Positions 1,416 through 53,200 of a DNA stretch of 64,000 bases are shown piece after piece. The translations under genes and the position numbers were made by a program. Source of the stretch: Hydractinia symbiolongicarpus (lineage: Eukaryota; Cnidaria; Hydrozoa; Anthoathecata; Hydractiniidae); contig NC_079878.1 of the NCBI RefSeq assembly GCF_029227915.1, positions 15,998,001-16,062,000 of the forward strand. The letters are read 5' to 3'. How positions within the stretch are numbered: position 1 is the first letter of the stretch; each line of letters begins with the position of its first letter. The notes below the pieces were generated by a model that was not told the DNA's origin, ran no database searches, and worked only from the letters and a program-made list of their open reading frames with translations.

Positions 1416-1806
1416 TACAATTAAATTATACTGACAGTTATAAATTATTGTATCCCGCTCCCTTCTTAGTAATCAAAGCGGAGACACTACATCACAAATA
1501 CAAACAGTTGAATTAATTTAGATACATACGGGACATAGGTACTCTAACAGATAAATAGTTTACAAAATAAAACTGGAAAATCTCTCAGTAAAATTAACAT
1601 AAAAGTAGGTTTTCCTACAATATGTCCAAAGCAATTAAGCTTGGTATATACTACCTAAAAATTAGGGTTTCAACACCGCGGTGGAGACCTAAGTACAAAT
1701 TATCCGAAACACCCGTAAAATAAAAATAAATAAATAAATGCAATTAAAAGAAAAATCAATTTATTTAAAAACAATACGAAACATAAACGATACACTGGAC
1801 TGAACG

Positions 1807-2575
1807 TTAGTAATAATCATTCACATTTCGATCATTAAGGCCATAGGGCGCAAAACTTTCAAGCTTATTTTGCCAATGCTGTTGCGCCTCAATGAATTCA
1901 CAGTGTCAGCTCGGTCAATAATCTTGGCAACCATTGTGACCATCTGAAGCCAAATGTGAATGGAAAGATTGTTGTGGTACAGAAGAACCTGAACTATGCT
2001 TCCGAAAGCAACTTTTGTAATTATTAAAACGAAGGCGAAACTTGGTACTTGCGCTACCTACATATTGTATATCGCAGGTTTTGCATTCTACCAAGTAAAC
2101 AACCATTTCGGAGTTACAGTTCAGGTCCCCCTTCCTTATATCAAATTTCTTGGACTTGCTTTTGTCACCAAAAGAAGAAGTAGTGTTTATGTAGTTACAT
2201 ACATCGCAGCGTTTAGCACAACATTTTCTACACCCGTTGGCTTTCTCCCTGATCTCAGGTAACTTTGCCCGCACAAGAAAGTCTTGCAAACTTTTCCCCT
2301 TTTTAAACCCCACAATAGGTACATTGCGAAAAACTTTGCGATGTTCTTCATTTGGTGTCAAAAGCAAGTGAATTTTAGATAACGTTCGCCTAATATTCAT
2401 AAATGCTGGGTGGTAAGTAATGTTAAAAGGTGAATTTATTATCATTATTCCTAGTTTTGATAGTATTCAGCAAGTCATCTCGTCTGAATTTTCGAGCCCT
2501 AAGTACTTGCTTTCTCACCATCTTACTACTGTGACCTCTATCCTGCAACCATGATTCCAGCTAATTGCACCTCTT
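1807..2575 (-). pseudogene. Penelope-like retroelement, C-terminal GIY-YIG part, decayed
   Basis: The longest open piece is 1915-2445. It shows a YHPAF motif and a linker ending LVRAKLPEIRE, then a Cys-rich stretch (CRKCCAKRCDVC). After that comes a GIY-YIG-type start (VVYLVECKTCDIQYVGSAS) and the downstream R-x-R-x-N-N-Y-K pattern. This layout is typical of the end of Penelope-like element (PLE) reverse transcriptases, where a GIY-YIG endonuclease follows the RT. The homology continues outside the open frame. Upstream (about 2450-2570) another frame reads like the conserved PLE linker (ESWLQDRGHSSKMV). Downstream, two further frame changes lead to WQNKLESFAPYGLNDRNV and a TAA at about 1807. 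At least three frameshifts and the missing RT core mark it as a 5'-truncated dead copy. Confidence 0.75.
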
Positions 2576-3600
2576 ATCGAAAAGAGTTTAGGAAATTTTC
2601 GAGTCGCCAAGTTTGGGAGTTGGGGGCTGCAAGTCAGGGGCCAGGGATGTGCAAAAGTGTACGATCACCGATTTATTTGTCCGACAAATTCGATTTCTTT
2701 GGCCAATTTCACGCTGAAAAAATTTAGGAATTTCAAAGCAACTTAACTGCGAAAAGGCAACCATCCGTCAGTTTTTCCAATGCGCTGTGACCATGCTGTT
2801 TCATTCCAATTTGCAATCCGAAGAGTAAAGGTAATTGACAAAGTATTTTTTGTTGGTGGCAAGTTTTCATGTTCAAATGGGCAACAGGTGAAGAAAGTAA
2901 CCACATGAAGTTAGCCTAGCAAAATTGTGCGTGATATATACCCTAGTTGTGTTAAATTTATATTCATATATTTAAGCTGTTTTATATTTATTTATAATAG
3001 TATAATATATTGGGGCTTTTAGTCTAAAACATAACTTTTTAAAAATGGTAATTTTTTACAGCTTTTTGGCCATTTTAGCTGTCTGAGAAGTTCTTAGCTC
3101 ATTAGGACACTGTACACAGGGTAAGGCCACCCTCAAAATTGTAATTGGTTAGTGTCACCCAACCGACTTACTTTGAAAGGCGAAAGTCGAGTCGGGGAGT
3201 CGGTAAATTTGTAAAGAATAAACCAAACAATCCCCGAACAATCTTCGACATGCAACAAAATCCACCATTTACCTTTTCAGGAATTACGATTGTTACGTCC
3301 GAATGCTATTTCGATAGGGGACTAAACTCTGTTACACAGTGCTTATATTCCTGCTTCGCATTTATACGACAATACAAGCGAAAACCATGGGAAAGACGTT
3401 GACTGAGAAAAATGGTACTTGGAACGGAGGCTAAAAATACTAAAAGTACATTTAAAATGAATAACAAAATATGGCTGCGAAATATAGTATTTTTGTAATT
3501 TTTTCGGGAAATTTTTTTATCCAACCGACCGACTCACTTTTGTAATTAGAAATGACGCTAACCAAACATATTTTCGACCGTGACCTAATAACAGGCTGTT
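2576..3600. other. Intergenic, nothing recognised
   Basis: Short reading frames only, without recognisable motifs. No RNA gene seen. Confidence 0.45.
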
Positions 3601-3609
3601 TACGGTCTG

Positions 3610-4135
3610 TTTATTTGAATCAAAGTGAGGATAGTTTTTTGGTATTATGCCTATACATTTGTGCGACACAGTATACCTGTACTAAACATTACGTTTGAAA
3701 AATATATATACACCCAAAACACCTTAATGCTGTGTGTGTGCATGACACGATTTACGATGTATATACTGCATACTTTTATTAACGGGCTTTACATGAATGT
3801 GTGGTACAATTTACAATTCGTATTAATCGCTCCGTCAGAAAAAAAGTTAAGTATGTTATGTGTGCAGTAAATCCACAAGCATATATAATATGCACCTGTA
3901 AAGTCATATTATATTTATACCCCTTTGGTCTAATGGCTATGACACTCATGCAAATGAGATATCCAGGTTCAAATCCTGGACAGGGCTAGAAAAAACATAA
4001 TTATCTACAACAAACAGATAATAATAATGATTGTAAGGATAGTTGGTATTCTTTGAATTGTAGGGGGCAGTGTTAAATACATTCATCACTTTTATTTATA
4101 GAGCACAAAAACTCAATTGAGGGATATATCCATAC
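3610..4135 (+). mobile_element. SINE-like repeat with tRNA-like core, copy 1
   Basis: The core at about 3920-3988 has a box A-like TGGTCTAATGGCTATGA, a perfect box B-like GGTTCAAATCC, a T-arm (CCAGG/CCTGG) and a GGGC acceptor end. The presumed anticodon arm is CTCAT-GCAA-ATGAG, a stem that cannot give a normal 7-nt anticodon loop, so this is not a functional tRNA. Flanks on both sides are shared with copies on the minus strand near 44.7-45.0 kb and 47.8-48.4 kb. The core and its CATAATTATCT downstream segment recur in all three. Confidence 0.75.
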
Positions 4136-5301
4136 AATCATTAACTGGGTTGTCATTTTGTCTAAAAAACAAAAAGTTTTTTAAACACATTTTTTATCTC
4201 AAATCTTACATACAGCGTGATGTTTACTTTTATTTCTGTACGTGATTTTTATTTCTAGATTTCTAGATCTGTGTGTATGGTGTGGAGGGTGAATATTAAA
4301 AACTGTCTAAGCAGCACAAGTGTTAATTTTTATGCTTGAAATGTTTTTACGAAAAGCTTCGTTAATAAAATCTTGTATATTGATGTGTGTTGATTTTTTA
4401 CATTTATTCGACTTTTACTTGACGTATATTTTTTATAGGAAACGAATACATGTTTTTATTAGAAACTTCGCCTTGGCTAACTTAAAGGCAATGTTCAGCG
4501 TAATTACCCCAACCTCGTTAATTAACCCCTATGTTGCAGCTTTCAACGATTCGGTGATTTACGGTACCTGAACGCTAGTTTCTTGTAAAACAAAGTGTAC
4601 GTAGGAATCCTACACAATACAATATTTACTTACTTTTCAATTTTTGTATTTTTCAGTGGTGACTTGGCGGTATCAGATAACGATTCGTCGTCTGACAAAA
4701 TGATCAAGGTATCCTAAATGTTACCGGAAAATAGTATGTTGCATCCAAAGGTCCTGTCAAAACTTTGGCTAAATACATCCCATTTGCTTATCATTTAATT
4801 AAGCCGACAATTGCAAGCTTACCTTGTTCTCCTCATTTGTTTAATCAATAAAAGATTAGTCGATGTGTAAATTATTAAACTGCGTGTTGGTCTGGGGTCT
4901 TAACCCCTCAAGAAATCGATTGATCGAAAAGGAAAAACACGAGTACAGGAGATGCATTTCGTTCTGGATGATTTGAATCGGAGCTTTTTCAATCCAATTT
5001 AGTTTCCCAGATCTTACCAATCATGACATGACCCCAATTTGAGACCAAAATAAGTAAAAAAGACACTGGGGAGGAGGTTGATTTGCTCTACGCTAGATTG
5101 TGGACCCCGGGTTACTCAAAGCTAGAATTGACCTTATTTTTCCGGATCCCGTCGGCAAACCGGTGAATTAAAAAAAACAAAAACAAATTGTAGATGCAAC
5201 TTCCCAACTCACTGCGTCGCAACTCGCTAACTTCCCAACTTTGCAACTCCCTGCGTAAGTGTAATCCATCGAAAAACTCTCCCTCTGAACAAATCGAATA
5301 A
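4136..5301. other. Intergenic, nothing recognised
   Basis: No convincing coding or RNA feature. The open frame at 5112-5393 on the minus strand overlaps the right inverted-repeat arm and has no recognised motif. Confidence 0.45.
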
Positions 5302-5484
5302 ATTGTAATAGTTCGACCGCGCAGAGAACTTTTCAATTTATTATTCTTTACGTCCTTTTTTAAAAACTTTTGTAAATATGTATATACTTTCACAGATTTT
5401 ATTAAAAATTGTAATTATATATGCGATACGCACCAGTATTATTTTAATTATTCATACCTATTTTAAGTTACATCAATAGCCTTT
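5302..5484 (-). repeat. Right arm of the 183-bp inverted repeat pair
   Basis: Reverse complement of 1233-1415, nearly identical along its whole length. Confidence 0.8.
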
Positions 5485-5759
5485 TGAAACCTATTGGGTG
5501 TTTTTTGAATACAGGCATAAATATAGATTGGCTGTTTATTTAGGCATTTACCGTTTTCTATCTTTTCAAACTCATAAGTTGGTGCCCCAAAGTTTTTTTA
5601 TATTTCTTTATTCGCAACAGTTTATGCCTCACAATGCGTTCTTTTCTTTAGCAAAAGTAAAACCACAAAACTTGGTCCTTTTTGGCTTCCAGAAAGTTTG
5701 CTTTAATAGTAATAAAAATGCCCCCTAAAATAAAATGTCTAAAAAACTGCCCATTTTAC

Positions 5760-5808
5760 TAAAGCACTGTGAGTACAGAAACATGTTGATTCTGTACTCA
5801 CTGCTTTA
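5760..5808. other. Long hairpin, about 18 bp stem
   Basis: The two arms (GTGAGTACAGAA and TTCTGTACTCAC at their cores, extended by AAAGCA/TGCTTT) pair around a 9-nt loop ACATGTTGA, with a 2-nt bulge. The size resembles a short pre-miRNA hairpin. A tiny MITE relic is equally possible. Confidence 0.45.
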
Positions 5809-6744
5809 TTTCCTGTATACTAGCCTGAAATAATAAAGGGAATAAAATTTGTCGTTACAATAGGATTAAAATGCCTAAGCTTAGTATATTTGGAAGAATT
5901 TTCTTGGTTTGCCGGAAAATGTTAAAACATATGTTTACTTTGGCTGAGCATTCTTCTTAAAAAGTTAATTTCAAATCGACTTTACCCTGCTAGCGACAAA
6001 ATCACTTACATGTCGGCCAAGGTAATTTTTACATATATATAAATAAAGTTTGGTTTAAAAACTTTCCTTGTGTACACAAGAGGTACATATCAGTAGCTAA
6101 CAACCCAGTTTGTCTCGGGTATTGTGAAGGTCGGTCGACATACTAAAAACAGGTATCCAAGAAATAGTTAAGTGTGGGACAAAATTTTGTTCCCCAACTT
6201 TTTTTATGCAAAAAAAAAAAAAAATTTCTGAAGTTCTTTGAACATGTAGAACGTTTTTCCTATCAAGGCTAGGTGAAATTCTATAGTGGCCATGTTGAAT
6301 TTAACAAAAATTTTTTTTAAAAAACGTGTTTTGTCACAGACCATAATTTTTTCTAAGTACTAATACACTTCAATTTAATGTCTTCTTCTACCTTCAACTA
6401 CCTCTTTTAACTAAATTTATTTCCAGGATAACTTGAGAGGGCATCTGTTTTCATTAAAAAAGACATAAAATCTAAGCTTGTTGTGGTATCTGATAAACAA
6501 ATGCAACTTAATAATTTTTTCAAAATTTCATTGATAAATGAATAAATTTTTGTTATCAAATCTCAGTTTTAAGGTTTCAGTGTGTTTAATGGGTATAAAG
6601 CTGTATCCAAATAAAAGTTAGCTAGCCTAAAATATGTTTACATTTTAACGGATCTCGCCCCAGTCCTAATTCAAAAAAATGTTTAGACATGCGCAGTCTG
6701 AGTTTCCGAAATATTGACCGCTGAAACAGCCGTGAACAGATATC

Positions 6745-36280: not shown

Positions 36281-36332
36281 TAGTTAGTACGGTGGCCCAT
36301 GCTTGCCACTATTGTCGAGCAGCAGAAATAAA

Positions 36333-36415
36333 TCACTACTGCGCAGTAAAAACAATTCTACTGCGCAGTAGTCATACTTCTACTGCGCAGTAGAAAACAT
36401 TCCAGTGCGCAGTGC
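36333..36415. promoter_or_regulatory. Left cluster of CTACTGCGCAGTAG palindromes
   Basis: Four copies (two perfect or near-perfect, two partial) within 80 bp, immediately inside the left terminal repeat. Probably transposase-binding subterminal repeats. Confidence 0.7.
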
Positions 36416-36810
36416 AGACAAAACACTTTGTTACGTCGATTATACGGAACAGCAGAAAGCCTGATGACAAAGAAGATATTTTTACATATATGCGACAGAA
36501 ATTTTATATACTTTGTTTGTAAATGTTCATGAAGACTAAATATCATTGTTTCAAACACCCAAACAATTTATTTCATGTGTTTTGAATGCGTTTAGATGCG
36601 ATATGGATGTAGCAGTCGAAAAAGTAAGGTTTATCTCTTTATAATTATAATCTGATTATATTCTAATATATTTTGATAGCAGAATTTAATGATTCACACA
36701 TTTAAATGTTTAGGTATGTGAATTTCTTGCTTCTCGGGGCATAAATGAAAGCATTATTACCGTGGCCGATAAGTGCATAAAAAAATCTTTGTTGCATAAA
36801 TTTAAAAAAG

Positions 36811-37404
36811 GCGTAAAAATAATGTTATATGCATAAAAATAATGTTAAATGCATAAAAATAATGTTAAATGTGTAAAAATAATGTTATATACGTAAAAAT
36901 AATGTTAAATGTGTAAAAATAATGTTAAATGCATAAAAATAATGTTAAATGTGTAAAAATAATGTTAAATGCATAAAAATAATGTTATATGCATAAAAAT
37001 AATGTTAAATGCATAAAAATAATGTTAAATGTGTAAAAATAATGTTATATGCATAAAAATAATGTTAAATGCATAAAAATAATGTTAAATGTGTAAAAAT
37101 AATGTTAAATGCGTAAAAATAATGTTATATGCATAAAAATAATGTTAAATGCATAAAAATAATGTTAAATGTGTAAAAATAATGTTATATACGTAAAAAT
37201 AATGTTAAATGTGTAAAAATAATGTTAAATGCATAAAAATAATGTTAAATGTGTAAAAATAATGTTAAATGCATAAAAATAATGTTATATGCATAAAAAT
37301 AATGTTATATACGTAAAAATAATGTTAAATGTGTAAAAATAATGTTAAATGCATAAAAATAATGTTAAATGTGTAAAAATAATGTTAAATGCGTAAAAAT
37401 AATG
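36811..37404. repeat. 20-bp minisatellite, about 30 copies
   Basis: Unit AATGTTAAATGCATAAAAAT with variants at the GCAT/GTGT/GCGT/ACGT position and TTAAAT/TTATAT. The variant order recurs in blocks, so several units were copied together. Confidence 0.95.
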
Positions 37405-37905
37405 CTTCGCAACCACTTCTTAAATTGCGAGTGGCTACGTCTGAAGCGGCTGGACGTACTGCAACCTCGTCCCCAGGACTTGACTATTTTTTTAATAATG
37501 AATCAAGACCCGTGCAAAGACAAGAACTCTAAACTGTTTAAGCGAAAAGACGCTGATACACATACTCCTTGTTTTAATTTTTTTTAAACGTGTACAGAAC
37601 ATTGACAAAAGTTGATAGACCAATAAGAACTCGTTGCAATGGTCTATGGCTTGGTTCCGAAACAAAGAAGACGTGCGTTTACAACGTTCTATGGAGACAA
37701 ATGAAGAGTAACGCGTTTCAAACGAAGATAATGCTATCTTTAGATAACACGAGTTATCTTAAGTTAGCAAAAATATCGTCAAATTGTATTATTAACAGCT
37801 CTAATCTCAAGATAACTACAACGTAAAGATATAAATATAACATTAATATGTTATCTTAAGATTACTCGAGTTAATTACAATCAGGATATTAATGTGAATA
37901 CGCAC

Positions 37906-37989
37906 GCATTCCAAAGTCACATTAATAGAGTTATCTTAAGATAACGTTTGTTATCTTAAGATAACTGTATTAATGTGACTTTGGAATGC
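37906..37989. repeat. 84-bp near-perfect palindrome
   Basis: Both 42-bp halves read GCATTCCAAAGTCACATTAA outward-in and then a GAGTTATCTTAAGATAAC-type core, with about three mismatches. Each half contains the self-complementary GTTATCTTAAGATAAC, so the structure is a palindrome of palindromes. Confidence 0.9.
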
Positions 37990-38592
37990 CATACTTTCTC
38001 CGTATTATTATAGAGATTTTAATAACAAGATCATGGCAGACGAAAACTGGATATAAGATTTTTTTACGGAATGAGATTATTTTTATGTATATAACATTTT
38101 TTACACATATTACATTTTTTCTACGTATATAACATTTTTTTTTACGCATGTAAGATTTTTTTTACATATATAACATTTTTTTTACGCATTTTTAAAATTT
38201 ACGCAACAAAGATTTTTTTTATGCACTTGTCGGCCACGGTACATTATAGACAATTTCAAAATAAATAAGGTAAAATAAATTCAATTTTTGTTTATTGCTA
38301 AATAATGCTATCGTTTTTTTGTTTGTTTATCTTTTTACCTACATATAATCAGTTTCAGCCTATTGACACCCCTTGTTCAATGTTTTTGAAAAAGGTGTAG
38401 GTACAAATCTCATACATATATTATTCAATTGTTTATTTTGCTTCTAGATGAATGGAGAAGCAGTGCTCATTTCTTCCGACGACAACCTACGGAATGATTT
38501 GGGTTTGAAAGCCATGGGTGACATTTATTTTGTGATGAAAAGTAACAGTGGTGAATCAACAAGTCACAGAAATGAGTTAGTGCGAAACATTA

Positions 38593-40495
38593 CGGAGTTT
38601 CATACCGCGCAAGTCTGGGCGCTAGCAAAGCGCTTTGTAGGGACAAATTTTTGTCATGTTTTCATTTGTCTCGATAGCCCAAATAATTTTCATGGTCAGT
38701 TTTTCACAACTATTCTGGTTAGTGCTGCGAAAAGAGGCAGAAATGCAAAATCCTGCCTTATGGTTCTTCAAATAACTTTTTACTTTAACTGACGTTTTGC
38801 TTTTTTATTAACACGTTAAAATGGTGTTGCTAACCCTCTTTGTGGTATATTGACATGGGTAAGATGTTGGAATCGGAGAAAACTTAATTTACTGACTTTT
38901 AAAGAGACGCAAGAGAAGACATATTGTTGATGTTGGTTTTAGGGGTTAGCTTTCTGAAGTTGCAAGCTACATATACCATACATTTTGTGTTGTGGGGAAT
39001 AAAGTAATGGTTAAAACGAAACACTATTCTATCATTATCAGTGTACTTTGGCAAGAAGAAATAAAAATTACAGCTAGCTATAGAAAGACTTAAAGGAAGT
39101 TTTTTTACAGTAAGCTATAGCTAGCTAGCTATATATGGATCTGCAAGTTTGACATGGATTAACGTGGAAAAGCATTTGATAAAGGAATTATTTGCAAAGT
39201 ATAGCTAACTAGTTATATAAAAAAGAGCATAGATGAAATCGACTGAAAATAAAATGCACACTTCAATGATATAATGACTGGCTTTGACTTTTCGTTAGAA
39301 ATTATTGTATATAAATATTACATAGCTAGCTAGGAAGGGATATATATATAATAGCATGTTACACTATATTACTGTGTTCTTAATTTTGGTAAAATGCAAG
39401 AATAAATTTAGGCAAGGTCCACTTTTACAATTTTGTGATAGCTATAGTAATTTTGGTACATTGACATAAGAAAAATGTGGCAACCAAAAATATTTGACGA
39501 AAAAAGTTAAAGTCACTAAATTTGTTTAAAAAGTTGTTTTCCATTAGATGTGTTTATTTTAACCACAGTACGTTATTTTATTTTATATTTCGCAGCGGTC
39601 AAAACTTTGTACTTTACAGATTAAAATTATTCCAATGCAAGCGTAGCAATTTTTAAGGCTAAGTTGGTGTTTGAACTGCACTGTTAAGTTGAGTGATATT
39701 AGAAATTAGTTTTTATGATCCTATTTTTAGCATCTGGGCACTTACCAACCTATATATCTGATTACTGTATGAATAAGGCTACGATATATATGAGTGGCCC
39801 AGTGTGACCCCTAGCTAACAAAAACTACAACGAGACAGATACAGCCAGCTTTTTGACAATTTTTAATTTGGTTTATAAAAAATATAGGGAACTCCGCCCT
39901 GGTTAGTTAAATAAAGTTTCTAGCAAACACAAAATAAGAAATTTTGGAATTGTTTTTTAATATTATAGCTAGCTAGGTATCTGTTTAATGAGCATGAAAC
40001 TATTACTTTAGAAAAAAAACCCATTGTTTTCTTTACTGTGTTTAATGAGCTACATTATTTTGGCTGTACTACTATCTATATAAATCTTGAATGACATGCT
40101 AGCAATGCCTCTTTGATCAACACTGTGATATTTTTAAGACAATATTAAAACTTGTGATGTAACTAGCTACCAAAATAAGGTTTCTTTCTCTTTTGACTGC
40201 CAACTTTTCATGATGAGTGTACCCCACAACTTGAAGCAATTATAATAACCAAGTTTAGGTCTTGAACTTTCATAATATACAATCTTATGTCAATACTGAG
40301 TATTCTTCCTTTTAAATAATTGTAAAATCAATATATCGCGCCAGTTTAAAAAGTAAAAATACAAAAGAAAAAGTGAATAATTCTCTTCGTACTGCATGTT
40401 TTTCTTAGCAAATGCCTTACGCTCTGCGAGGGATATAAAAATTTGTCCCTACAAGCGCTTCGCTAGTGCCCAGAGCTGCGCGGTATGAAACTCCG
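38593..40495. mobile_element. 1.9-kb TA-flanked element nested in SAM exon 3
   Basis: Bounded by TA duplications (38,591-38,592 and 40,496-40,497) with about 60-bp inverted repeats starting CGGAGTTTCATACCGCGCA and ending GTAGGGACAAATTTTT. A TA duplication and long inverted repeats suggest a Tc1/mariner-type nonautonomous element. The interior has no open frame and is rich in TAGCTAGC. Confidence 0.88.
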
Positions 40496-41315
40496 TAATC
40501 AGAGCTGTTTCCGCCCCATCATCAAAAAGGGTGAAAAGCACACGGTTATTACATTTAGGTTGGCAAATTTTAGGTTTCATCCAGAAAAAAAAAAGTATGC
40601 AAGTGTCAAAAAAGCTGGTGGAGCTCGAAGTTTAGAAATGCAGAAAGATGCAAGTGTTCTTGATATTATTACTATTGCCAAGAAACATTTCTTTCCAAAT
40701 GGAACAAGTGTCCTTGGACTTGAAAATAAATTTGTGTTCAAATTAGGGAATTTCAGTTGTGACATAATTAATGATGTTGATGAAAATTCTCAGCAGCAGT
40801 TTACATTGGAAGGCTATATTGAAAAACTGACACATACACGACTGTATTTACTTTCAAAGGAAAAAAACTTTAGTGACTTAGTTGGTACCAGTGATGATGG
40901 ATATGATTTTTTTTATCAACCGAAAAAAACTTGTAACAAATGTTATACCAAGTACCGCTATATCTGCCTTAACTGCTCATTTGATGAAGATATGACCGTG
41001 ACTGATGAAAAAAACACCCTTTGTAAGTGTGGTCGAACCATGGTAGATGGATATTGCTTGCCGTGTCAACAGGATTTGGAATATCAACGTTCATTGGAAA
41101 TTGATCAAGCCAAAGTTAATCTTCAAGACTCAAGTTCCGCCAATGTAGTTGAGTTTGAAGATTCCAGTGATGAAAATGTTCCTGAGCTAACAAATGCTGA
41201 CCTACGAAATGCAAGAGTTCGCAGATTTACCAAGGCACCAATTAGATATAGACACTCAATTAGATCACCTCCTACGCCATCAGCTCACACAACACCACCA
41301 GAATCATCAGGATAA

Positions 41316-41579
41316 GGTCCTTCTACACCATCATCGCCCGGAAAAGCAAACCATGACAAGGATGAACATGAATTTGGAGATGAGGAAATCAATAGGTTTT
41401 TCGAAGAGTACACTGTGCCAGAAGACCTTTCTGAACCTGAGCAGTCAGGTGACAGTTTTTTATTAGAGGCACGAGCATTATATAAAGAGGACCAGGGTAG
41501 ACAACAGAGAGTTGTAGTTGTTCAACGTGCAAAAGGACGTTTTTGGAACATTTTGTTGCAACAAAACTTTAACTTATAA
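41316..41579 (+). pseudogene. In-frame continuation after the TAA of the SAM-domain gene
   Basis: Open for 87 codons in the same frame: Ser/Pro-rich, then acidic (EFGDEEINRFFEEYTVPEDL), then RVVVVQRAKGRFWNILLQQN before TAA at 41,577. The amino-acid character matches the sequence before the stop, which argues that TAA at 41,313 is a mutation and not the natural end. Confidence 0.6.
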
Positions 41580-41857
41580 TGAAATTTATTATGAAAAACA
41601 TACACATTATATTTGTTCTGTTCTATCTTGGAGAATTTTTGGAAAAGATATTACAGGTATTTTCTTTTGTTTTGAAAGCTATTAGAGAAGGTATATACTG
41701 TACCCAATCTATTTAAGCTCGATCTTAAGTGTTTGAGAGAAGTTTTATTGAAGAAAGTTAATATTGTATTGCTTTATTTTGTTCAAAGAAGAATATCATA
41801 TTAAACAATTTTTTTATATTTTATACTTATGCTGCATTTTTCTTCACACGTAACTGT

Positions 41858-41863
41858 TTTATT
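41858..41863 (-). terminator. Polyadenylation signal AATAAA for the integrase gene
   Basis: AATAAA on the minus strand about 28 nt after the integrase stop codon. Confidence 0.55.
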
Positions 41864-41890
41864 AAATGTTATCGGTTAAACGTATCAATT

Positions 41891-43108
41891 TCATGTACAA
41901 AATATCGGCTTCATCAAATGTCTTAGGATATTCAAGTTATTTTCATTCATCAAGATGGCTGCAAGCTCCGCGAATTCCGTCAAACAAGCGAAAGAGTTTG
42001 GGCTTTTAGCGTATATTGTAGAGATATTGTGAAGATCATGTGCAGTAACTTTCTTCCCATAATCCTGAACTCCAACTGTAGCGGACAATCGATACAAAAC
42101 ATTTGGGCAACCAGCTGGTGCTTCGCTCAATCGATTGTTCCGTATGTAGTGATTATTCCAATACTGCTTGGTGTGATCGAGACCTTCTTGTAAAACTCCA
42201 ATGAAACAAAATCGCAAAGCCTCAACATGCATTTTGTTAGAATCATCATAGAGACCTTGATCGCGGAGGTCACGGAAATAATTTATCCAGAAACTGTCTT
42301 GTTTTAAAATTGACCACCATGCTTCGATTCTCTGGTTGCTTGTCGAACGGCCATATTGGAAGCTCTTTTCTCCACCAAAACTATCCATATCATTACGGCG
42401 TAGATATTTTTGCACCGTGCATACATTTCCATTTTCTGTTCCACGATCAGCTAAAAATATGCAAAAGTATTTTTCAAAGGAGTGAGTAAGAGCCACGCTT
42501 GATACAGGAGAAAAAGATCATACCTCTTATACGCCTCGGAATTATTTTCCTGTCTTTAACAAACGTTGTGAAATAATGTGCGACAACCTTAGGATCTTTG
42601 TTCGTGTAACTGATTCTCAGCCATAGCATTTTTCTGCTGTAACCGTCAATTCCACCATGAATGTAAAATCCGAATGACTTTAATTTGTCATTCCCATCAA
42701 TGTGCCATACATCATTAGGCCCACGGTTTATGTACTTTCTTCTTTTTAATTTGTGGCGGGACCTGCGATCACATCCTTTAGGATCTATAATGGATAAGGA
42801 TTTTGTACAACAGATCGTTGGACTTGTATTCCACGTTGTAAAAGACGTTGTTGGTAGTTACGATAGCCACGATTCTCTCCCCCATTTTCAAGTATTTCCC
42901 TCATAGAAGTAATAAGCATATTTGGGTCGACTGTGACGCCTCTCCTTTTAAGGCCAAGTCGTCGCAAATTCCGATGTAGCGTTCTCATGCTCAATTCCTT
43001 TTTATAACGTTGAAAAATCAATCTTAGGATGTCATCATAAGGCAACCCATGATAAAAATAACTAGAAATGTCTCTTTCAATATCCATCTCTGAAATGACA
43101 GAACACAA
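41891..43108 (-). pseudogene. Integrase-type DDE transposase with N-terminal helix-turn-helix
   Basis: First coding block about 43,089-42,524, second exon 42,450-41,891, with a short GT/AG intron of phase 1 (donor AGAG/GTATGA, acceptor ATATTTTTAG). The N-terminus has a helix-turn-helix (YFYHGLPYDDILRLIF, LSMRTLHRNLRRLGLKRR). The catalytic core shows NDVWHIDGNDKL (first Asp) and GGIDGYSRKMLW. Exon 2 begins with ADRGTENGNV (second Asp) and then has STSNQRIEAWWSILKQ (Glu), so the D-D-E triad is intact. One base is missing near 42,800: after RSVVQ the frame reaches TAG, while the next frame continues DPKGCDRRSRHKLKRRKY. This may be a real mutation or a base error. The start could be MDIERD or an upstream exon (43,255 downward, MMADKIFEMR). 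It converges with the SAM-domain gene. Confidence 0.85.
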
Positions 43109-43302
43109 CGAAAGTCAAACTAAAAGTAGCGAAGGAGCAATCAAATTAAAATATGATTTTTTATAAAAGGAAGCACATACCAAACTTTTGATTTCAAATT
43201 TTCCTATATTCTTCTTCGTGTACTCTCGCATTTCAAATATCTTGTCAGCCATCATGGAATGCCGGAAAAATTGTCTTCACATAACTCAAAGCCCCATATT
43301 AC

Positions 43303-43745
43303 ACTGCGCAATAGTTGAAGTTCTACTGCGCAGTAGCACATATTCTACTGCGCAGTAGAACTTTTGACTACTGCGCAGTAGAACAATGACTACTGCGCAG
43401 TAGAACTATGACTAATGCTAGAACTTTGACTACTGCGCAGTAGAACTTTGACTACTGCGCAGTAGAAATTTGTCTACTGCGCAGTAGTCAAAGTTCTACT
43501 GCGCTGTAGCACATGTTCTATTGCGCAGTAGATGTATTTCTACTGCGCAGTGAAATTACCACTACTGCGCAGTAGAACATTTTCTACTGCGCAGTGCACT
43601 AAGTATTCTATTGTTCCTTCATGCTTACTGCGCACTAAACAAAGTTTTAATGCGCAGTAGAACGTTGACTACTGCGCAGTGAAAACTCGTCTACTGTGCA
43701 GTAGTCACAGTTTTACTGCGCAGTAGAAATGTGACTACTGCGCAG
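43303..43745. promoter_or_regulatory. Right cluster of CTACTGCGCAGTAG palindromes
   Basis: About twenty perfect or slightly altered copies at roughly 20-24 bp spacing over 440 bp, just inside the right terminal repeat and upstream of the integrase start. They may bind the transposase and also act as its promoter region. Confidence 0.85.
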
Positions 43746-43904
43746 TAGAAATCTAATTCTACTGGTCAACAATAAATGGCAGATATGGGCTTCCGTAAGT
43801 TAGGTAGTTGCCGAGGGAAGAGTGGGAGAGTTGCTAAATTTCACTGTAACGAGGTTAAAAGTCATAGTTGCTCTGTTCCGTCGGGGATAATACAACACTA
43901 AATC

Positions 43905-48445: not shown

Positions 48446-48818
48446 CCCAGTAAAACTTAAAATATATATGTACTTTAATCTGTGGTGCGCCATTAGTATA
48501 GGTAAACAAACCCTTTCAAAAAAACTTTAGCACAACTTCTATTAAATAGAAACACAGGTAATAGCTTGTCGTTAACACTAGGCTGAGTGATTAGTACAAA
48601 TATACTGTGGCGCACATCCAAAAAACTTTGGTTCAAATAAAGAGACAGTAAACACCCTGTTGTTATCCTACACAGCTAAAACAATCATTCAGCAATTTTA
48701 TTTTGCGGAAAAGTTTTTGTAACATTTAAAAATAAAACACTGTTCAAAACCTGTTTTTACGCTCCTAAAGAATCCTGCAATATTTTATGGGAAATATTTC
48801 TGTGCTAGATCAAAAATT

Positions 48819-50253
48819 ATCCATCCATCCATCCATCCATCCATCCATCCATCCATCCATCCATCCATCCATCCATCCATCCATCCATCCATCCATCCAT
48901 CCATCCATCCATCCATCCATCCATCCATCCATCCATCCATCCATCCATCCATCCATCCATCCATCCATCCATCCATCCATCCATCCATCCATCCATCCAT
49001 CCATCCATCCATCCATCCATCCATCCATCCATCCATCCATCCATCCATCCATCCATCCATCCATCCATCCATCCATCCATCCATCCATCCATCCATCCAT
49101 CCATCCATCCATCCATCCATCCATCCATCCATCCATCCATCCATCCATCCATCCATCCATCCATCCATCCATCCATCCATCCATCCATCCATCCATCCAT
49201 CCATCCATCCATCCATCCATCCATCCATCCATCCATCCATCCATCCATCCATCCATCCATCCATCCATCCATCCATCCATCCATCCATCCATCCATCCAT
49301 CCATCCATCCATCCATCCATCCATCCATCCATCCATCCATCCATCCATCCATCCATCCATCCATCCATCCATCCATCCATCCATCCATCCATCCATCCAT
49401 CCATCCATCCATCCATCCATCCATCCATCCATCCATCCATCCATCCATCCATCCATCCATCCATCCATCCATCCATCCATCCATCCATCCATCCATCCAT
49501 CCATCCATCCATCCATCCATCCATCCATCCATCCATCCATCCATCCATCCATCCATCCATCCATCCATCCATCCATCCATCCATCCATCCATCCATCCAT
49601 CCATCCATCCATCCATCCATCCATCCATCCATCCATCCATCCATCCATCCATCCATCCATCCATCCATCCATCCATCCATCCATCCATCCATCCATCCAT
49701 CCATCCATCCATCCATCCATCCATCCATCCATCCATCCATCCATCCATCCATCCATCCATCCATCCATCCATCCATCCATCCATCCATCCATCCATCCAT
49801 CCATCCATCCATCCATCCATCCATCCATCCATCCATCCATCCATCCATCCATCCATCCATCCATCCATCCATCCATCCATCCATCCATCCATCCATCCAT
49901 CCATCCATCCATCCATCCATCCATCCATCCATCCATCCATCCATCCATCCATCCATCCATCCATCCATCCATCCATCCATCCATCCATCCATCCATCCAT
50001 CCATCCATCCATCCATCCATCCATCCATCCATCCATCCATCCATCCATCCATCCATCCATCCATCCATCCATCCATCCATCCATCCATCCATCCATCCAT
50101 CCATCCATCCATCCATCCATCCATCCATCCATCCATCCATCCATCCATCCATCCATCCATCCATCCATCCATCCATCCATCCATCCATCCATCCATCCAT
50201 CCATCCATCCATCCATCCATCCATCCATCCATCCATCCATCCATCCATCCATC
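48819..50253. repeat. (ATCC)n microsatellite, about 358 units
   Basis: About 1435 bp of uninterrupted ATCC. Three frames per strand are open (SIHP and WMDG repeats). These are artefacts, not genes. Confidence 0.98.
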
Positions 50254-53200
50254 TTCTTAGGCCGCAAAAAACGTTTTCCAATCTTTGAAACCCTGTGCAC
50301 GTTCTTGAGGGTGTTCCATGGCTATGGCGGAATGGTAAACGACTTGAGATGTCGTAGGCAATGGAAAGTGGAAAGACTTGAACCTTTACCGTCTGTCTAG
50401 CGTCGTAGTAGCACGTATTTTACGTGTAAGGACCTTATTAAGCTGCGCAATGCCGTATTACAATCTTTAGAAGCCTGTACACGTAGTTGACGCTGTTCTA
50501 TTGCTATGGTGACAAGGAAAACGACTTGAGGGATTGCAATCTATTAAGAGTGAAAGGACTAAACCTACTGCCACCTAAGCTCGTGGAAGCACGTGATTTA
50601 CGTGTAAGTCCTTTATTAGGCTGCAAAAGGCCGTATTCCAACCTTTAGAAAACTGTGCACGTACTTGACGGTGTTCTATTGCCATGGCGGAAAGAAAAAC
50701 GTCTTGAGGTGTTGTAATCTATTGAAAGTGAACGGACTAGACCGATCCCTGCCTGTCTAGGCTTGTAGCAGCACGTAGTTTACGTGTAAGCCCCTTATTA
50801 GGCTGCACAATGTCGTATTACAATCTTTAGAAGGCTGTGCACGTAGTTGACGCTGTTCTATTGCTATGGTGGAGAGGAAAACGACTTGAGGCGTCGTAGT
50901 CCAATAAGAGTGGAAAGAGTAGACCGATCCCAGCCAGTCTAGGCTCGTGGCAGCACATGATTTACGTGTAAGGCCCTTATTAAGCTGCACAATGTCGTAA
51001 TACAATCATTGGAAGCCAGTGCACGCACTTGACTGTTTTCTATTGCCATGGCGGAAAAGAAAACGTTGAGGTGTGGTTCCTCATTGAGAGTGGAAAGACT
51101 AGACCGATGCCCAGCTCTCTTGGCTCATAGAAACACGTTATTAAGTGTAACGCCCTTATTAAGCCGCAAAAGGCCGTACTACAACATTTAGAAGACTGTG
51201 CACGCACTTGATGGTGTTTAAAGGCTATTACAGAATGGAAAACGTTTTGAGGCGACGTAGTCCATTGAGAGTGGAAGGACTAAATTGACCATCACCTGCG
51301 TAGGCTCGTGGAAGCACGTGATTTACGTGTAAGGTCTTTATTAGGCTGCAAAAGCCGTATCACAACCTTTTGAAGAATGTGCACGTACTTGACAGTGTTC
51401 TATGGCTATTGCGGAAAGGAAAAAGACTTGAGTCATCGTACGCCATTGAGAGTGGAATGGCTAGACCGATCCCAGCCTGTCTAAGCTCGTAGAAGCACGT
51501 TGTTTACGTGTAAAGCCCTTGTTAGGCTGCACAATGTCATATTACAATCTTTAGAAGCCTGTGCACGTAGTTGACGGTGTTCTATTGCTATGGCGGAAAG
51601 GAAAACGACTTAAGGCGTTGTAATCTATTGAGAGTGAAAGGACTAGAGCCATCGTCAACTGTCTAGAATCGTGGAAGCACGTTATTTACGTGTAAAGCCC
51701 TTGTTTGGCCGCAAAAAGCTTTGTTAGAACCTTTAGAAGACAGTGCACGGACTTGAGGTTGTACCATGGCTATTGCGGAGTGGAAAACGTCTTCAGGCGA
51801 CGTAGTCCATTGAGAGTGGAAAGACTAGACCGATCACTACCTGTCTAGTTTCATGGAAACACGTGATTTACGTGTAGGGCCCTTCTCAGGCTGCAAAAGA
51901 CCGTACTACAATTTTTAGACGCCTGTGGACGCAGTTGACAGTGTTCTAAGGCCATGGTGGAAAGGATAATGACTTGAGATGTCGTAGTCCATTGAGAGTG
52001 GAAAGTCTAGAGGGATGCCCACCTGTGTTGGCTCGTAGAAGCACGTTATTAAGTGTAAGGCCCTCATTAAGACGCAAAAGGCCGTACCACAACCTTTAGA
52101 TGACTGTGCACGTACTTGTCGGTGTTCTATTGCCATGGCGGGAAAAAATGTCTCGAGCCGTTGCAATCTATTAAAAGTGAAAGGACTAGAGCGATCTTCA
52201 ACTGTCTAGACTCGTGGAAGCACGTGATTTACGTGTAAGGCCCTCATTAGGCCGCAAAAGGCCGTATTCCAATGTTTGGAAAACTGTGCACGTACTTGAC
52301 TGTATTCTATTGCCATCGCGGAAAAAAAAACGACTCTAGGCGTGGTAATTTATTAAGAGTTAAAGGACTAGACCTATCGTCAACTATCTAGGCTCGTGGA
52401 AGCACGTGATTTAAGTATAAGGCCCTTATTAGGCTACAAAAAACGTATAACAACCTTGAGCAGAATGTGCCCGTACTTGACGGTGTTCTATGGCCATTGC
52501 GTATTCGAAAACGGTTTGAGGTGTCGGTGTCGATTGAGAGTGGAAGGACTAGACCGTTCTCAATCAGTCTAGGCTCCTGGAAGGACGTGAATTACATGTA
52601 AGGCCTTTGTTATGCTGCAAAAGGCCGTTTTACAAACCTTGAGAACAATGTGCCCATACTTGACGGTGTTCTATGGCCATTGCGGGCTCGAAAATGGTTT
52701 GACGCGCCGTAGTCCATTGAGAGTGGAAGTACTAGACCGTTCTTAATCGGTCTAGGCTCTTGAAGGCATATGATTTACGTGCAAGGCCCTTATTAGGCTG
52801 CAAAAGGCCGTATTCCAACCTTTAGAAAACTGTGCACGTACTTGACGGTGTTCTATTGCCATGGCGGAAAGAAAAACGTCTTGAGGTATTGTAATCTATT
52901 GAAAGTGAACGGACTAGACCGATCCCTGCCTGTCTAGGCTTGTAGCAGCACGTAGTTTACGTGTAAGCCCCTTATTAGGCTGCACAATGTCGTATTACAA
53001 TCTTTAGAAGGCTGTGCACGTAGTTGACGCTGTTCTATTGCTATGGTGGAGAGGAAAACGACTTGAGGCGTCGTAGTCCAATAAGAGTGGAAAGAGTAGA
53101 CCGATCCCAGCCTGTCTAGGCTCGTGGAAGCACGTGATTCACGTGTAAGACCCTTATTAGGCTGCAAAAGCCGTATTACGATCTTTAGATAACTGTGCAC

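Follow-up and report, generated by a model that had tools for sequence, protein, structure and literature searches.

Positions 36288-43797 of a 64,000-nucleotide stretch of Hydractinia symbiolongicarpus DNA (contig NC_079878.1; the whole stretch is referred to here as the window) hold a DDE integrase gene and, on the opposite strand, a second gene with SAM and ubiquitin-like features, which raises the question of whether both belong to one mobile element and what the second, partner gene contributes. Judged from its sequence, the locus is a real DNA transposon, probably of the IS3EU type, and the probability that it is an IS3EU-type transposon with a partner gene of the E3 ubiquitin ligase type is put at roughly 0.7. 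The element is 7.5 kb in length (∼4.1 kb once two nested insertions are subtracted) and is bounded by the following features.

36282..36287, no strand: left target-site duplication AGTTAG, with an exact copy at 43798-43803
36288..36340, plus strand: left terminal inverted repeat, TACGGTGGCCCATGCTTGCCA..., aligned to the reverse complement of 43745-43797
36336..36413, no strand: left palindrome array of four units set 22 bp apart, with core ACTGCGCAGT and 50 bp between the tip and the first core
43303..43750, no strand: right palindrome array of 19 units set mostly 22 bp apart, with 51 bp between the last core and the tip
43745..43797, minus strand: right terminal inverted repeat, TACGGAAGCCCATATCTGCCA, aligned to the left repeat
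43798..43803, no strand: right target-site duplication AGTTAG, an exact copy of that at the left flank

The first-pass annotation of this DNA had described AGTTAG target duplications, TACGG-type inverted ends, and palindrome clusters inside both ends, and all three were found. The duplication is exact, and the TACGG..CCGTA ends (TACGGTGGCCCATGCTTGCCA versus TACGGAAGCCCATATCTGCCA) can be aligned over ∼54 bp, although imperfectly. With up to three mismatches allowed, the end pattern occurs at two sites in the window, which are the element ends only, each with 0 mismatches (chance mean 0.18; two matches in 2 of 100 shuffles). The palindrome CTACTGCGCAGTAG, with up to two mismatches, was located at 20 sites in the window, every one inside the two ends, against a chance mean of 0.05.

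The integrase is encoded on the minus strand in three exons, the first putative and the second interrupted.

41891..42451, minus strand: integrase exon 3, with the second D and the E of the triad (rva_4, 49.9 bits; tblastn with P0002)
42522..42800, minus strand: integrase exon 2 past the frame break, with the first D of the triad (rva_4, 52.0 bits)
42806..43087, minus strand: integrase exon 2 ahead of the frame break, N-terminal region
43181..43255, minus strand: putative integrase exon 1, inferred from an open frame and a GT donor

The rva_4 (PF24764) DDE integrase core is recognized in two exons at 52.0 and 49.9 bits (cut-off 26), and the three acidic residues of the triad are present in WHIDGND, DRGTEN, and NQRIEAWW, in agreement with the earlier call of a DDE integrase with an intact triad. 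The frame break lies between 42806 and 42800. A Pfam search of the open reading frame pieces, at E values up to 1, did not list an integrase zinc domain, and the N-terminal exon is uncertain. A protein search with the integrase returned 299 relatives at E ≤1e-3, the best of the 120 listed having an E value of 3e-121 and 51% identity. Scans of viral contigs with the alignments of integrase and partner found no relatives of either. The genome is rich in rva_4-type integrases, with 705 first-look candidates, of which 150 were scored, and several groups with identical copies.

With TAYGG..CCRTA termini, a 6-bp duplication, and an integrase-like DDE core, the window element appears to fit IS3EU/GingerRoot, a grouping made by ends, duplication length, layout, and DDE core rather than by comparison with named IS3EU sequences. 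Two reports describe IS3EU elements with TA..TA termini (TAYGG..CCRTA in the described fungal families), target duplications usually of 6 bp, an integrase-like DDE transposase without the HHCC motif and, in fungal elements bearing TET genes, an alpha-kinase gene opposite in orientation to the transposase (PMC10045372, PMC12730594).

The partner gene occupies the plus strand and is interrupted by two further elements, as listed below.

36603..36623, plus strand: inferred partner exon 1 (MDVAVEK), with a GT donor and a frame that runs into exon 2
36714..36757, plus strand: partner exon 2, first part (SAM), with an AG acceptor
36758..38241, no strand: nested element A, IS3EU-like, with TACCG..CGGTA ends and the 6-bp duplication CATTAT at 36752-36757 and 38242-38247
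36807..37404, no strand: 20-bp minisatellite of 29.9 copies within nested element A
38248..38269, plus strand: partner exon 2, second part
38448..38588, plus strand: partner exon 3, first part (remainder of SAM)
38589..40499, no strand: nested element B, 1.9 kb, inverted ends of ∼65 bp (TTACGGAGTTTCATACCGCGC...), boundaries approximate
40500..41579, plus strand: partner exon 3, second part, with the putative ubiquitin-like region, Cys pairs, and linker

The protein had been described as a SAM, probable ubiquitin-like, and Cys-pair protein. Its SAM domain was recovered when the exons of the window were joined (SAM_2, 20.8 bits, just above the cut-off of 20.5) and the Cys pairs are present; the start of the ubiquitin-like frame probably does not stand. 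A frame break is found at an A-run near 40585-40595, with a stop at 41313-41315, and the conserved block TRLxHLGWQ sits in another frame, where it matches P0001 (E 8.6e-6) and P0123 (E 7e-4); the first ∼30 residues of the ubiquitin-like frame as originally drawn are probably out of frame. Pfam searches of the open reading frame pieces gave neither a HECT nor a ubiquitin-like match, and a PDB sequence search with P0001 gave 0 hits. When the window partner was compared with 15 relatives, 12 matches stopped at 41576 and one at 41573, and two relatives had no match to the window at E 1e-3. Because the relatives continue into a HECT domain where the homology stops (41576), HECT has been lost from the window copy. 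Nested element A looks like an IS3EU element too, because of its TACCG..CGGTA ends and CATTAT duplication; for element B, a 6-bp duplication was sought by eye and none was seen. As both genes are frame-broken, the partner is cut by two nested elements, and HECT is lost, neither protein could be made whole from the window copy, which by all these marks is dead. The integrase and SAM gene first reported are present, in a copy more damaged, by nested elements, frame breaks, and a stop, than that report described.

Fourteen genome regions (L059-L072) were read for complete elements, 11 picked because a partner match adjoined an integrase and three (L070-L072) for their integrase group. Nine of these hold an element whose ends match (0-2 mismatches in 20) and whose 6-bp duplication is exact (ATCTAG in L059, CACCGC in L061, TCAAAC in L062, TAAAGA in L066, GTTTTA in L067, GCTGAG in L068, GTTACG in L069, GAAGCT in L070, and GTTTTA in L072); such ends with an exact duplication were not found in L060, L063, L064, L065, and L071. 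Eight of the nine begin TACGG or TATGG, with the far end of L061 being TACGA inverted, and L059 has TACCG. Five carry a HECT-type partner with a Thr-Cys motif (L061, L062, L067, and L069 by Pfam, L059 by BLAST), two have lost HECT, one has no partner, and one (L072) has a HECT-like start recognized by eye only. The partner of L061 has 263 bp gone from its middle and L069 has a short integrase frame. L060, without such ends, has a Pfam HECT partner convergent to the integrase, and in L071, from the highest-scoring integrase group, neither ends nor a partner were recognized by eye. L059 and L064/L065 are copies of one family, too close for an informative ratio of nonsynonymous to synonymous substitution (dN/dS). 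HECT has been lost in L066, L068, and the window, that is in two families, with the ends and N-terminal partner parts kept; this could reflect internal deletions that arose by chance, or selection that favored a truncated partner.

A HECT domain, for which a search had been proposed in the first-pass annotation, was found by Pfam in 8 of 10 database relatives of the partner, and also in the partners of L060, L061, L062, L067, and L069; the Pfam threshold was not reached in P0133, P0136, L059, L066, L068, and L072. Scores in the relatives are modest (25-48 bits). The Thr-Cys active-site motif of the C-lobe is kept in all five families compared, in which the partners differ at 58-83% of positions, and the predicted fold of the relative P0131 matches solved HECT domains. 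In relatives, the partner starts with SAM-like sequence (or, in one family, with a zinc ribbon) and goes on through a putative ubiquitin-like region and, in many cases, Cys pairs to HECT at the C terminus. Compared with the HECT E3 ligases NEDD4, HUWE1, UBR5, and E6AP, the predicted fold and the Thr-Cys in the C-lobe are common to both, whereas identity is 15-20% and the HECT of the partner is carried by a transposon, is fused to SAM-like and ubiquitin-like parts, and is missing from the window copy. Taken together, the partners of the relatives probably have E3 ubiquitin ligase activity.

The elements read here share with IS3EU/GingerRoot the type of termini, the duplication length, the DDE integrase and, as in the fungal elements bearing TET genes, a second gene opposite in strand; fungal elements carry alpha-kinase and TET/JBP genes, and the second gene here is of the SAM-like/ubiquitin-like/HECT kind. 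Unlike those described, the Hydractinia elements add apparently phased palindrome arrays (in three families), and L059 has TACCG in place of TAYGG. No HECT partner was described in the literature found on IS3EU and on HECT or SAM partners, a search to which Repbase and most subscription papers were external, so that a record there is possible. Six-base pair duplications, TA..TA ends, and fungal alpha-kinase/TET/JBP genes are thus already known for IS3EU, and the HECT-type partner would be new within the literature searched.

The pairing of the two genes recurs across the genome (480.9 Mb searched), where 61 partner matches, from the 60 candidates scored out of 117, merged into 55 loci, and the integrase set comprised at least 199 merged loci. 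An integrase lies within 6 kb of at least 35 of the 55 partner loci, with 31 convergent, four same-strand, and 0 divergent arrangements. In 1000 random placements within contigs, the number of such pairs averaged 0.31 and never exceeded 3. Two of the 35 paired loci use one integrase in common. Integrase and partner distances among five families (L059, L060, L062, L067, and the L061 family with the partner of L069) correlate with r = 0.92, a value reached by 3 of 120 permutations, the identity permutation counted in. These data bear on whether the SAM/HECT gene is instead an ordinary host family that transposons have repeatedly captured or come to adjoin. The remaining 20 of the 55 partner loci, the window included, have no integrase within 6 kb among the matches listed, as such a family would predict; the window was scored unpaired because its broken integrase is absent from those matches, and some of the others could be host genes. 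The near-uniform convergent orientation, the enclosure of both genes by one pair of ends, flanked by exact duplications, in several families, and the correlated distances all argue against a host family, which is very unlikely. The proposal that the locus is a transposon with the SAM/ubiquitin-like gene as part of it is upheld. SAM and ubiquitin domains had also been regarded as unusual cargo: the link to ubiquitin is borne out by the HECT relatives, but an isolated oddity it is not, given the recurrent pairing and the IS3EU/GingerRoot hallmarks. The first-pass interpretation of the second protein is supported in part: it is best read as an E3 ligase encoded by the transposon, and scaffolding, redirection of host ubiquitination, or escape from silencing would be candidate roles.

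Several observations, in addition to the 20 unpaired loci, weigh against reading the window element as an IS3EU-type transposon with an E3-type partner. HECT is absent from the copy itself, and the rest of the window gave no HECT match at E 1e-3 either. L066 and L068, which belong to the L061 family, have HECT partly or wholly deleted with differing deletion borders, and L070 has the integrase without a partner, which makes the partner dispensable in some families. The L059 partner was matched by neither HECT nor SAM in Pfam, only by BLAST similarity to HECT-bearing relatives; Pfam matched SAM in the joined exons of the window and in none of the relatives scanned, and the search for a ubiquitin-like fold covered L059 alone. 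Lastly, no coding sister of the window family was found among the 23 distinct places examined, the window counted. The identification of HECT is unaffected by the weaker evidence for SAM and ubiquitin-like parts in relatives.

Nine other copies of the window family have both ends and measure 218-3494 bp. The duplication is exact in one of them (L044, CGTAAG), agrees at five of six positions in three (L039, L040, and L051), and shows no clear match in five. Eight of the nine, at 218-851 bp, are too short for the integrase or the partner, and the 3494-bp copy matches neither gene. With eight of nine two-ended copies under 0.9 kb, the family is seen here mainly as short non-autonomous copies. Copies with the integrase alone between the same ends, which the first-pass annotation had set against its own proposal, did not occur among the nine; with eight too short for either gene and the ninth matching neither, this speaks neither clearly for nor clearly against the proposal within this family.

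Palindrome arrays are found at both ends in three families, each with its own palindrome. L061, L066, L068, and L069 have the core AGGACGTCCT, with units mostly 20-21 bp apart and an offset of 51-52 bp from each tip; the core of L067 is AGTTATAACT, with units 19 or 31 bp apart and an offset of 75 bp at each tip. In the window family, the arrays are kept in the six copies examined (the window counted) and also in L040; the distance between array and tip deviates at one tip in L047 (27 bp) and L039 (63 bp). Such arrays are not present in L059, L060, and L062; among the 14 regions, the search covered L059-L062 and L066-L069. The 22-bp unit consensus of the window is itself palindromic, its non-core positions being less conserved among units that were chosen by core. 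The spacings lie close to integral numbers of helical turns (cosine averaging 0.64-0.84 for a 10.5-bp turn), which fits helical phasing without proving it.

A different role for the partner would be that of a HECT-like protein inactive as a ligase that would serve as a structural or DNA-binding helper, for example a SAM oligomer on the array. En/Spm (CACTA) elements encode two proteins, of which TnpA binds subterminal repeats, and have repeated motifs inside both ends; they have another transposase, 3-bp duplications, and a non-palindromic motif, and are not known to encode a ligase. The Hydractinia elements are alike in their two proteins and end repeats and unlike in transposase, duplication, motif, and ligase. 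A helper comparable with TnpA would be in keeping with arrays that appear phased and start at a similar distance from both tips in most copies, with L066 and L068 lacking HECT yet having N-terminal parts, and with HECT scores of only 25-48 bits. Retention of Thr-Cys in five of five families despite such divergent partners speaks against it, as does L059, which has a SAM-like N terminus and HECT but no array, so that a SAM-like/HECT partner and an array are not coupled. An inactive helper is considered improbable.

If the partner is an active HECT-type ligase, the integrase would cut and paste the element while the partner worked at the transposition complex, recruited through contacts of its SAM or ubiquitin-like parts or through attachment to the palindrome array. 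The most likely substrate would be the integrase-DNA complex or adjoining chromatin proteins, and ubiquitination could lead to dismantling of the complex or relief of silencing. That the ligase acts at the element itself is a tentative proposal, held at somewhat less than even odds. The full scheme, an animal branch of cut-and-paste elements that brings its own HECT ligase to the ends via helically phased, family-specific palindrome arrays and uses ubiquitination to switch the transposition complex or local chromatin, is speculative and rather unlikely as a whole. Alternatively, an active ligase might degrade a host defense or silencing factor and not act at the transposition complex. Viruses commonly use ligases to target host factors, and fungal IS3EU TET/JBP genes are proposed by the authors who described them to counter silencing; the architecture of the partner says nothing of its target. 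Degradation of host factors away from the complex is on balance unlikely, and it is doubtful that silencing factors are the main target of the ligase.

With an active partner ligase, these elements would, like some viruses, come equipped to steer the ubiquitin system of their host, and the use of ubiquitin in transposition would become a testable question in Hydractinia, a laboratory animal. The family-specific arrays near both tips offer a ready binding assay for which protein reads the ends.

Two elements bear on the relation of integrase and partner. In L070 (844-2304), an IS3EU-like element that lacks a partner, the integrase has a SAM-like N terminus (18.0 bits, below the Pfam cut-off of 23), a fusion that may explain the SAM-like parts of partners elsewhere. 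In L062, the integrase and HECT partner (1472-3733 and 4638-5096) both begin with zinc-ribbon sequence, scored at 31.1 bits in the integrase (cut-off 25) and at 18.7 bits, under the cut-off, in the partner. Together, the L070 fusion and the L062 zinc ribbons hint at an assembly surface shared by integrase and partner.

Other features lie apart from the element. Positions 1915-2466 of the window, on the minus strand, give a weak GIY-YIG match (19.0 bits, cut-off 22.6) in a fragment that we take to be perhaps a Penelope-like retroelement, and positions 48809-50260 hold ∼1.45 kb of a short tandem repeat, one frame of which reads SIHP. In L065, a tyrosine-recombinase open reading frame at 5482-6501 on the minus strand (Phage_integrase, 33.4 bits, cut-off 27.1), possibly a Crypton- or DIRS-like element, adjoins an IS3EU copy.

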